A DNA stretch of 64,000 nt from Acidovorax sp. sif1233 (lineage in GTDB: Bacteria; Pseudomonadota; Gammaproteobacteria; Burkholderiales; Burkholderiaceae_C): positions 248,001-312,000 of the forward strand of contig NZ_JAHUWZ010000003.1 in the NCBI RefSeq assembly GCF_019218755.1, written 5' to 3'. A program made the translations under genes and the position numbers. This document shows positions 49,720 through 53,920 of this stretch, piece after piece (position 1 is the first letter of the stretch; every line of letters starts with the position of its first letter). The notes below the pieces were generated by a model. It searched no databases. It was not told the origin of the DNA and was given only the letters and a program-made list of their open reading frames with translations.

Positions 49720-49845
49720 ATGAAAAAGACCGCAACCCTCATCGTGCTCGCCATCACCTTCGTGCTGGCTGGCTGCAACACCGTCAAGGGCGTGGGCCAG
49801 GACGTACAGCGTGCCGGCGGCGCCCTCGAGCGCGCCGCCAAGTAA
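49720..49845 (+). CDS. Entericidin A/B-family small lipoprotein
   Basis: A 41-residue lipoprotein: basic start MKKT, hydrophobic stretch, lipobox LAGC (C at residue 19), then [22 protein letters not shown], the entericidin pattern. It is 12 bp after leuC and 13 bp before leuD, preceded by AAGGAG. A location within the leucine operon is familiar from betaproteobacteria; its function there is not known to me. Confidence 0.85.
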
Positions 49846-50598: not shown

Positions 50599-51672
50599 AT
50601 GAAAATCGCAGTTCTGCCGGGTGACGGCATTGGCACCGAAATCGTCTCTGAAGCCGTCAAGGTTCTGGAGGCCCTGGAACTCCCGTTCGAGATGGAGTCC
50701 GCCCTGGTGGGCGGCGTGGCGTACGACGCGCACGGCCATCCACTGCCCGAGTCCACGCTCAAGCTCGCCAAGGAAGCCGACGCCATCCTGTTCGGCGCCG
50801 TGGGCGACTGGAAATACGACAAGCTCGACCGCCCCCTGCGCCCCGAACAAGCCATCCTGGGCCTGCGCAAGAACCTGGGCCTGTTCGCCAACTTCCGCCC
50901 CGCCATCTGCTACGAGCAGCTGGTGGGTGCATCCAGCCTCAAGCCCGAGCTGATCGCGGGCCTGGACATCCTCATCATCCGCGAGCTGACGGGCGACATC
51001 TACTTCGGCCAGCCCCGCGGCCGCCGCGTGGCCACCGACGGCCACTTCCCCGGTGCCGAGGAAGCCTTCGACACCATGCGCTACAGCCGCCCCGAGATCG
51101 AGCGCATCGCCCACGTCGCCTTCCAGGCTGCGCGCAAGCGCAACAAGAAGGTCACCAGCGTGGACAAGGCCAACGTGCTCGAAACCTTCCAGTTCTGGAA
51201 GGACGTAGTCACCGACGTGCACAAGGAATACCCCGACGTCGAGCTGCAGCACATGTACGTGGACAACGCGGCCATGCAGCTCGTGAAGGCGCCCAAGGCG
51301 TTCGACGTGGTGGTCACGGGCAACATGTTCGGCGACATCCTGTCGGACGAAGCCTCCATGCTCACCGGCTCCATCGGCATGCTGCCCTCGGCCAGCCTGA
51401 ACAGCACCAACCAGGGCCTGTACGAGCCCAGCCACGGCAGTGCGCCGGACATCGCCGGCAAGGGCGTGGCCAACCCGCTGGCCACCATCCTGTCGGCCGC
51501 GATGATGCTGCGCTTCAGCCTGAACCAGGAAGCCGCCGCCCAGCGCATCGAAGCCGCGGTGCAGAAGGTGCTGGCCCAGGGCCTGCGCACCCCCGACATC
51601 TACAGCGAAGGCACTACCAAGGTGGGCACGGCGCAGATGGGCGATGCAGTGGTCAAGGCGCTGGCCGCCTGA
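50599..51672 (+). CDS. leuB: 3-isopropylmalate dehydrogenase
   Basis: A 357-residue NAD-dependent beta-decarboxylating dehydrogenase: [44 protein letters not shown] and [22 protein letters not shown]. Start at 50599 is the family N-terminus. It ends the leu group and is followed by a strong terminator. Confidence 0.97.
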
Positions 51673-51747: not shown

Positions 51748-52422
51748 CTACACCCACGCGTTGTCGATGAACTCCATGATGGAATAGCACCGGTTTTCCA
51801 GCGGCCGCTCGCGCACGACCGCCACGATGTGCGCGACACCCTCCGCATACGGTGCATCGCCATAGACACGGGTTTCCAGCGTCACGCTGCACGCGCCATC
51901 CTCGATCAGCACCCGGTGGTAAGCGTGGCGGGCGAGATGCTCCTGGGGAATGTGCAGCACGTCCCGTTGCACCCCGGCATCGCGCACGGACCGGATGTCC
52001 CCCGGCGCCAGGCCCAGCGCCTGCGCCATGCTGACGGCCGTGCCCGGCACCGAGGACTTCTGGGCCTGGTGGGATTCGGTCAGCCCGGTGCGGTAGCCGC
52101 GAAACAGAGGCCCGCTGCGCTCCAGCATGGCCATGAACTTGAGCATGAGGATGTTGGTGTTCGGACACAGGACGACCGGAAAACCCACCACACGCCCTTC
52201 CAGCCCGGACCCGGTGGCCAGTTCCACCAACGGGGAATGCGTGGATTCGCAAAAGGCGCAGGCAGCCTCCAGCTCCCTGCCGGAACCGGCATGCAGCACG
52301 ACAGATTTTTCTGCACGCTGCCCCTCACCGGCCCATGGCAAAACCTGCGCTTCGCCACGGGCAGGCAGCGCCCCCAGAAGCTCCTTGGCCAGCTTGCCTG
52401 ACCCTACAACGATGACTTGCAT
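51748..52422 (-). CDS. DapB-like reductase with altered active-site motif
   Basis: A 224-residue Rossmann protein (MQVIVVGSGKLAKELLG) with FPVVLCPNTNILMLKFM and ESHQAQKSSVPGTAVSMAQ. That motif aligns with the catalytic E-x-H-H-x4-K-x-D-A-P-S-G-T-A of dihydrodipicolinate reductase, keeping the first His and Lys but changing the second His to Gln and shortening the loop. It is about 40 residues shorter than usual DapB. It may be a reductase or dehydrogenase on a related compound. It is divergent from asd. Confidence 0.75.
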   Translation of the reverse strand: MQVIVVGSGKLAKELLGALPARGEAQVLPWAGEGQRAEKSVVLHAGSGRELEAACAFCESTHSPLVELATGSGLEGRVVGFPVVLCPNTNILMLKFMAMLERSGPLFRGYRTGLTESHQAQKSSVPGTAVSMAQALGLAPGDIRSVRDAGVQRDVLHIPQEHLARHAYHRVLIEDGACSVTLETRVYGDAPYAEGVAHIVAVVRERPLENRCYSIMEFIDNAWV

Positions 52423-52581
52423 TTCTACTTTCGAATTGAACAAAGGAGGCAAAGGCAGCACTGTAGACCGCCGCACCGGCGTGGCGCGCGGCCAGCCCGG
52501 CTGGGCGGGCTCTTTTCGCGCCGCCCACGGAGGGCGCGCGCCGCAGGGCCGCCGGCGCACCCGGATCCAGGCCGTATCCGG

Positions 52582-52587
52582 TACAAT
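52582..52587 (+). promoter_or_regulatory. -10 element before the asd leader
   Basis: TACAAT at 52582-52587 with no convincing -35. It would start transcription near 52594, a few bases before the leader ATG (52596), so the leader could be leaderless. The 367-bp gap 52423-52789 holds this, the leader frame and the stem-loops, and no other gene. Confidence 0.4.
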
Positions 52588-52595
52588 GTTCGCCT

Positions 52596-52697
52596 ATGTT
52601 TGCCGCCCGCCCGTTCGCTCTGAACATCGCACCCGCCGCCCCGGCCGGTGTGGCTGCGCGCGCAACCATCACCAAAACCACGACCATTAAGGGCTGA
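52596..52697 (+). CDS. Candidate leader peptide of asd (33 aa, Thr/Ile/Lys-rich end)
   Basis: A 34-codon frame with stop TGA (52695-52697). Codons 24-32 read T-I-T-K-T-T-T-I-K; all three amino acids are end products of the aspartate pathway downstream of Asd. The stop is 4 bases before the first of two overlapping stem-loops. A second frame from ATG 52586 ends with many His codons and stops at 52690; the asd context favours the Thr frame. The coding nature is an inference. Confidence 0.55.
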
Positions 52698-52701
52698 CTC
52701 A

Positions 52702-52774
52702 GCCTGGTTCGTCGTGCGCCCTCCCTGGCCAGACGAGCCAGGCGAGCAGTCCGGTCTGGCACTGTTTCTTATTT
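52702..52774 (+). promoter_or_regulatory. Candidate attenuator: two mutually exclusive stems before asd
   Basis: Stem 1: GCCTGGTTCGTC (52702-52713) pairs with GACGAGCCAGGC (52732-52743), 12 bp with one G-U. Stem 2: GCCAGAC (52728-52734) pairs with GTCTGGC (52754-52760), followed after 4 nt by TTTCTTATTT. The two share bases 52732-52734, so both cannot form. A 6-bp alternative CCTGGC/GCCAGG also exists. The asd ribosome site (AAAGGG) comes right after the T tract. This is the order antiterminator, terminator, gene. Confidence 0.55.
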
Positions 52775-52789
52775 AGAAAGGGCGTTGAA

Positions 52790-53920
52790 ATGAGCAAGTT
52801 GGTAGGGTTGGTTGGCTGGCGCGGAATGGTCGGCTCGGTCCTGATGGACCGCATGGCGCAGGAGAAGGATTTCGACCTGATCGAGCCGATGTTCTTCTCC
52901 ACCTCGAACGCAGGCGGCAAGGCTCCCGCGCAGGCACGGAACGAGACCACCCTGCAGGACGCGTTCGACATCGAGGCCCTCAAGCGCTGCGAAATCATCA
53001 TCACCGCCCAGGGCGGCGACTACACCAACGAGGTCTATCCCAAGCTGCGCGCCGCCGGCTGGAACGGCCACTGGATCGACGCCGCCTCCTCCCTGCGCAT
53101 GGAGAAGAACGCCGTCATCGTGCTGGACCCGGTCAACATGCCCGTGATCAAGAACGCCCTGGCCCAGGGCGGCAAGGACTGGATTGGCGGCAACTGCACC
53201 GTGAGCTGCATGCTGATGGGCGTAGGCGCCCTGTACAAGGCGGGTCTCGTGGAATGGATGAGCACGCAAACCTACCAGGCGGCCTCCGGCGGCGGCGCGC
53301 AGCACATGCGCGAGCTGCTCACGCAGTACGGCACGCTCAACGCCGAAGTGAAGGCCCTGCTCGATGACCCCAAGAGCGCCATCCTGGAAATCGACCGCAA
53401 GGTGATCGCCAAGCAACGCGCCCTGACGGGCGCTGAAACCGCCAACTTCGGCGTGCCGCTGGGCGGCAGCCTGATCCCCTGGATCGACAAGGACCTGGGC
53501 AACGGCATGTCCAAGGAAGAATGGAAGGGCATGGCGGAAACCAACAAGATCCTGGGCCAGGGCGAGGGCTTCAGCGCCCCCGCCGTGCCGGTGGACGGCT
53601 TCTGCGTGCGCGTGGGCGCCATGCGCTGCCACAGCCAGGCGCTAACCTTCAAGCTGAAGAAGGACGTGCCCCTGGCGGACCTGGAGGCCATGATCGCCGC
53701 CGACAACGAGTGGGTGAAGGTCGTGCCCAACACCCGGGAAGCCACCGTCAAGGACCTGACGCCCGTGGCGGTGACCGGCACCATGGACATCCCCGTGGGC
53801 CGCATCCGCAAGCTGGCCATGGGGCCTGAATATGTCGGCGCGTTCACCATTGGCGACCAGCTGCTGTGGGGCGCGGCTGAACCGCTGCGCCGCATGCTGC
53901 GCATCCTGCTCGACGCCTGA
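52790..53920 (+). CDS. asd: Aspartate-semialdehyde dehydrogenase
   Basis: A 376-residue NADPH enzyme making aspartate semialdehyde, the shared precursor of Lys, Met, Thr and Ile. [18 protein letters not shown] at the start, catalytic C136 in [12 protein letters not shown], and [14 protein letters not shown]. It is the long gamma/beta-type. The upstream leader is discussed separately. The order leuB, asd, fimV is typical for the group. Confidence 0.96.

Follow-up and report, generated by a model that had tools for sequence, protein, structure and literature searches.

Aspartate-semialdehyde dehydrogenase (Asd) is the branch-point enzyme for lysine, threonine, methionine, and isoleucine. In Escherichia coli, thrL is the transcription attenuator of the thr operon. 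Bacillus subtilis rtpLA is under translational control by uncharged tRNA-Trp, and in SecM-secA the C-terminus of an upstream protein controls the next gene. The actinobacterial LEU element upstream of leuA contains a leader ORF with end-product codons and pairs with the downstream Shine-Dalgarno (SD) site; the threonine and lysine operons of Actinobacteria are reported to lack conserved upstream RNA elements (PMC1262725). The transcripts of Sinorhizobium meliloti trpL (PMC7298713) and Corynebacterium glutamicum ilvL (PMC11857589) start no more than one nucleotide from the leader start codon.

The locus described here lies in a window of 64,000 nucleotides of Acidovorax sp. sif1233, the window being the whole stretch of DNA analyzed. 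With a modest degree of confidence, it is read as a ribosome-sensing translational attenuator of asd. As in thrL, a Thr- and Ile-rich leader peptide precedes an aspartate-pathway gene and stems compete after the stop codon. thrL differs in that it regulates thrABC, not asd, and in its strong terminator, which scores -20.0 by the hairpin and U-tract rule used below; the asd leader differs in that its tail also contains Lys and sometimes Met, and in that it matches no Rfam family (no matches at the gathering score in the window, none up to E=10 in 52550-52800, and none in six related loci). The proposed likeness to rtpLA lies in leader-codon stalling that exposes the downstream gene's ribosome site, with a different amino acid, gene, lineage, and RNA. 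SecM resembles a version of the locus in which the sensor would be the end of a real upstream protein, LeuB; SecM is a dedicated arrest protein, whereas LeuB is a working enzyme whose tail codons look like starvation codons. The LEU element shares the end-product codons in a leader ORF and the SD pairing, and it differs in that its leucine codons themselves pair with the SD and in belonging to another gene and phylum (PMC1262725). trpL and ilvL are likewise leaderless leader peptides, in their case of transcription attenuators in other pathways (PMC7298713, PMC11857589). Searches of open-licence papers turned up neither an asd leader nor control through a LeuB tail, and the novelty of both is provisional.

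A sequence-only reading of the window had described a 33-codon frame upstream of asd, with codons 24-32 reading T-I-T-K-T-T-T-I-K and a stop at 52697, and had interpreted it as a transcription attenuator sensing Thr, Ile, and Lys. The frame and its codons are present in the sequence as described, and the interpretation is partly supported. Thr, Ile, Lys, or Met account for nine of the last 10 leader codons; the 64-kb window has 1453 stop-ended 10-codon stretches, counting both strands, and none of the other 1452 exceeds five. The features of the locus are collected in the table.

Features of the asd leader region, in positions of the window
Feature	Position	Strand	Evidence
leuB	50599..51672	+	Pfam PF00180; C-terminus KALAA, no Thr/Lys tail
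-10 box TACAAT	52582..52587	+	8 nt before leader start codon
Leader ORF, 33 codons	52596-52697	+	read from sequence and translation
Control codons Thr-Ile-Thr-Lys-Thr-Thr-Thr-Ile-Lys (codons 24-32)	52665..52691	+	sequence, family alignment, chance count
Stem 1 left arm (putative anti-sequestor)	52702..52713	+	98.3% paired, 48 loci
Anti-SD GCGCCC, predicted to be free only without fully formed stem 1	52716..52721	+	complementarity, RNAalifold consensus
Competing hairpin H5 left arm	52724..52728	+	96.7% paired; RNAalifold
Stem 1 right arm	52732..52743	+	98.3% paired, 48 loci
Competing hairpin H5 right arm, common to stem 1	52738..52742	+	96.7% paired; RNAalifold
Hairpin H2 left arm (candidate blocked-state spacer hairpin or weak terminator stem)	52745..52750	+	88.8% paired; RNAalifold
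Hairpin H2 right arm, runs into T-rich stretch	52761..52766	+	pairing and terminator scan
asd SD region AAAGGGCGT, putative anti-SD target	52777..52785	+	sequence, complementarity, RNAalifold
asd, aspartate-semialdehyde dehydrogenase (putative regulated gene)	52790..53920	+	Pfam PF02774 E 6.3e-45, PF01118 E 5.7e-26

Related leaders were identified through a search with Asd; its 80 closest loci from named genomes belong mostly to Acidovorax, Hydrogenophaga, Limnohabitans, Roseateles, and their kin. Together with the window, and after exclusion of L031 and L073, which are without upstream DNA, 79 loci were testable; a Thr/Ile/Lys-rich tail ends 71-205 nt upstream of asd in 78 of them, the sole exception being L078 (Aquabacterium), in which no such leader tail is present. 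A covariance model, R1, built from 56 of the 78 loci (alignment A1), matches 236 of the 299 genomes of the window's family at E<=1e-4. Within the window's own genome there is one strong match (E 6.3e-25), the next lying at E 0.3. Outside this first family, weak matches (E 3.7e-5 to 0.01) occur in 31 genomes, and of the 18 of these that were inspected, asd is part of the locus in L102 and L118 alone. Both belong to a second family, and their matches sit between leuB and asd. In this second family, sampled at 31 loci, mostly the most similar ones, of the 57 genomes with Asd, the leader is present in 22 loci, with tails such as TKTIIKR and TPKTITKR; one member is ∼96% identical to Burkholderia replicons. 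The leader codons first noted in the window are conserved in relatives of both families. An order-wide sample of the 29 other loci with the most window-like Asd, drawn from 131 genomes with Asd, contains four with a leader, all in these two families, and 25 without. Absence of the leader elsewhere is only partly tested since the samples comprise mostly the most similar loci. A plasmid search with the window found just one distant asd. After removal of duplicates, 86 first-family and 21 second-family distinct loci were retained.

The last 10 codons consist of 76-83% Thr, Ile, Lys, or Met in three groups, part of which was required by the leader selection itself. The exact wording of the tail differs between groups and the Thr/Ile/Lys composition is kept. 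Among the distinct separate leaders of the first family, 49 of 64 are 33 codons long, and the rest have 32, 34, 35, or 38 codons. By its sequence the Thr/Ile/Lys leader looks translated: as in leader-codon attenuators, a short frame of predicted translation ends in codons for the end products of the pathway. The alternative frames hold stops in 42 and 45 of 49 aligned leaders. Strong coding constraint is absent from the first part of the leader, with pN/pS outside the tail at 0.31/0.40, mildly below 1. In these 49 first-family leaders K-T-T-T-I-K-G is nearly invariant, which would also suit an arrest peptide of the TnaC type, stalling on a free small molecule such as Lys or Thr and not on starvation codons. 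We consider such a peptide very improbable, given that the tail wording varies freely in the LeuB-fused and second-family versions with the Thr/Ile/Lys content kept. The first-family invariance, moreover, extends to the nucleotides, and so may reflect RNA constraints.

A TANNNT box lies 6-10 nt before the leader ATG in all 85 distinct separate leaders, 64 of 64 in the first family and 21 of 21 in the second. Because spacings of 3-10 nt and every in-frame ATG were admitted in looking for the box, the better evidence is the count of exact TACAAT boxes, which is 55 of 64 in the first family. With the leader start so close downstream of the box, the leader mRNA is probably leaderless, and transcription in the window is predicted to start at the ATG or 0-2 nt ahead of it. 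Between leuB and asd, a divergent gene (51748-52560, minus strand) has a weak match to the C-terminal domain of dihydrodipicolinate reductase (PF05173, 20.2 bits, cut-off 27); it is possibly a lysine-pathway relative that shares the intergenic region with the leader promoter. Farther upstream, between leuC and leuD, a 41-codon ORF with a lipoprotein-like start (49720-49845, plus strand) resembles an entericidin.

The RNA downstream of the leader stop is structured. In the window, none of 200 dinucleotide shuffles folds as well as the 76 bases that begin at the leader stop (z -4.1), and the same holds for the 194 bases between leader start and asd (z -5.0). The sequence-only reading had placed a first stem, stem 1, four bases after the stop by pairing 52702-52713 with 52732-52743, and this stem stands, with 12 perfect pairs in the sequence and 98.3% pairing over the 48 aligned loci. 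This value, for which 11 inner pairs were counted, is reached by none of 500 column shuffles (mean 97.4), and two pairs are changed on both sides. The alignment used (A4) covers 48 of the 86 distinct first-family loci, with L064 shortened, and omits the Roseateles-type loci as well as most of those in which stem 1 is bulged. A second stem of the earlier reading, in which GCCAGAC (52728-52734) pairs with GTCTGGC (52754-52760), is likewise present in letters, as is TTTCTTATTT, and the stem and the T-rich run are four bases apart. As a conserved terminator and main output, stem 2 was rejected, its pairing of 76.0% being at the level of the column shuffles (mean 75.8%). Its pairing is well above that of slid versions (21-34%), as expected of a structure that was read off one of the sequences. 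Stem 1 does have a rival that shares its bases, as had been claimed; the conserved rival is hairpin H5 together with the anti-SD pairing, and not stem 2. H5, to which RNAalifold on the leader end gave the first pointer, is 96.7% paired with 11 two-sided changes (reached in 0 of 500 column shuffles). Sharing alignment columns 61-65, stem 1 and H5 exclude each other, and each is 97-98% paired. Hairpin H2, farther downstream, is 88.8% paired, and five of its six pairs have changes on both sides (0 of 500 shuffles). The left arm of stem 1 could also pair with the end of the leader (52691-52695); this stem is 92.1% paired without covariation and is not claimed.

The anti-SD is complementary to the asd SD region at six of six bases in 60 of the 86 distinct first-family loci, compared with 1.6% of shuffled SD regions; in a control, the neighboring -60 to -30 region pairs fully in three of 86. 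Cognate anti-SD/SD pairs are better than swapped ones in all of 1000 permutations; with one locus per combination (21 combinations) the covariation is not significant, as 390 of 3000 permutations reach it. C-G pairs are exchanged for U-A at L043 and L034, and most of the SD complementarity is lost at L062, L069, and L072. In three Roseateles-type loci, L062, L065, and L072, the LeuB tail and asd are far apart (spacer of 132-205 nt); the complementarity is lost in L062 and L072 and kept in L065. When run unprompted on 46 of the 64 distinct separate-leader loci (alignment A2), RNAalifold returned H5, H2, and the pairing of GCCC within 52716-52721 with the asd SD, in a fold that also holds a stem across the leader stop. 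In 21 second-family loci it gave, again unprompted, an equivalent blocked state, in which CGUGCCC pairs with both SD and start codon and encloses a conserved hairpin; this pairing is 96.6% paired, with two-sided changes at one pair in three related loci. The covariation energy terms of the consensus folds are small, -0.72 kcal/mol in the first family and -0.10 kcal/mol in the second. Between leader and asd, the second-family loci (L122, L134, L151-L172) carry an invariant CUUCCCCGC...GCGGGGAAG hairpin with a loop, CGGGC, complementary to the anti-SD GCCCG, which may be the anti-sequestor of that family.

The RNA that follows the leader apparently can hide or expose the asd ribosome site. We infer control of translation rather than of termination because the conserved rival of stem 1 is H5 with the pairing of 52716-52721 to the asd SD. 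In the proposed mechanism, a ribosome would read the Thr/Ile/Lys-rich end of a frame, be it the separate leader ORF, apparently leaderless, or LeuB, and the stop of this frame sits 4-5 nt ahead of stem 1. When charged Thr, Ile, or Lys tRNA is scarce, the ribosome would stall upstream of stem 1, which could then form and take up the anti-SD neighborhood, leaving the asd ribosome site open. A ribosome that reaches the stop would instead cover the left arm of stem 1; the right arm would be left to fold into H5, and GCGCCC, now free, would bind the asd SD and reduce asd translation.

Mean SD pairing over the 86 loci is 0.082 higher, and stem 1 is lowered, when the ribosome is masked at the stop in folding rather than at the control codons; 20 shuffled sets give -0.01 +/- 0.009, with a maximum of 0.007. 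In the window, the shift is weak, as the anti-SD:SD probability reaches just 0.08 (starting from 0.0005) and SD pairing 0.61 (starting from 0.56). Among the 22 loci in which the tail belongs to LeuB, mean SD pairing is unchanged by mask position (0.81 and 0.81). The energy of opening the asd start rises by more than 1 kcal/mol in 45 of the 86 first-family loci and falls by more than 1 in 12; the second family displays no clean shift (six up and four down of 21). Opening energy was thus set aside as a clean two-state signal, being only moderate and absent in the second family. Such two-state folding is a consistency check and not proof, since equilibrium folding ignores the order of synthesis.

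Classical transcription attenuation would use the same leader and stem 1, with an intrinsic terminator in the T-rich stretch before asd as its output. Terminator-like hairpins are enriched in the first family: a hairpin with a U-rich tract scores below -8 kcal/mol in 25 of 86 loci (29%; 172 shuffles, 12%) and below -5 kcal/mol in 42 of 86 (shuffles, 17%). Some groups reach strong values, -20.7 in L011, L021, and L038 and -16.2 in L006, L015, and L016. The best such hairpin of the window, however, scores -8.0, and 33 of 86 first-family and 20 of 21 second-family loci have no candidate. No conserved terminator competing with an anti-terminator emerges from these counts (25 of 86 below -8, and one of 21 in the second family). 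Stem 2 pairs at shuffle level, and the common U-tract hairpin, H2, shares no bases with stem 1, which therefore could not control it in the usual way. The transcriptional reading of the leader is weakened by these observations and is rated unlikely, retaining some weight because terminator-like hairpins exceed shuffles in the first family. Termination in part of the family is possible, as is a dual or group-specific output.

The gene that carries the tail varies across the first family. By labels assigned by hand, 64 of the 86 loci have the tail at the end of a separate ORF and 22 have it as the C-terminus of LeuB, for example MGDAVVAAITTTTKTIKS; the LeuB tail of L049 was read from the locus separately. 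Layout and LeuB end correspond cleanly: where the LeuB end is readable, it is free of a Thr/Lys tail (KAL, KALG, KALAA, and similar) in 42 of 42 separate-leader loci, in 20 of 20 leader-bearing loci of the second family, and in 30 of 30 loci lacking a leader, by a hand count from which L006, L007, L029, L095, L124, and L136 were dropped as their matches stop short of the real LeuB end. The tail-free LeuB of the window is as expected where the leader is separate. Met is found in four of the 22 LeuB tails and in one of the 64 separate leader tails. Mapped onto the Asd phylogeny, the starred branches require three or more changes of layout, and the best tree has nine; this is a quick gene tree of Asd, not a species tree, in which 16 of 89 inner branches are starred.

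The structured RNA could serve another role, as a protein binding site, in mRNA stability, or as a small-RNA source, with the Thr/Ile/Lys tail coupled otherwise. The RNA is indeed very conserved, and the stem that pairs the leader end is without covariation support. Such a role is judged improbable, as it does not account for a tail that changes place, from separate ORF to LeuB or the reverse, with the downstream RNA remaining beside its stop. Under translational attenuation, the enzyme seems to double as sensor, since in several relatives the leader stretch is the LeuB tail. We put at about even chances the view that LeuB is the leader peptide in part of the family, having acquired at its C-terminus a tail of Thr, Lys, Ile, and at times Met, amino acids derived from the Asd product. 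Ribosomes finishing LeuB would test those tRNAs and set asd translation. The sensor would then have switched between leaderless mini-gene and enzyme tail three or more times by the supported branches, and nine times by the best tree.

If true, the locus would represent an amino-acid attenuator on Asd in Burkholderiales whose codons stand for several end products, whose output is probably translational, and whose sensor is leaderless or, in another version, an enzyme tail. Nature's exchange of separate leader and LeuB tail provides a ready-made experiment in which one RNA switch is served by two sources of ribosomes. The C-termini of enzymes may conceal regulatory codons that are annotated as plain protein.
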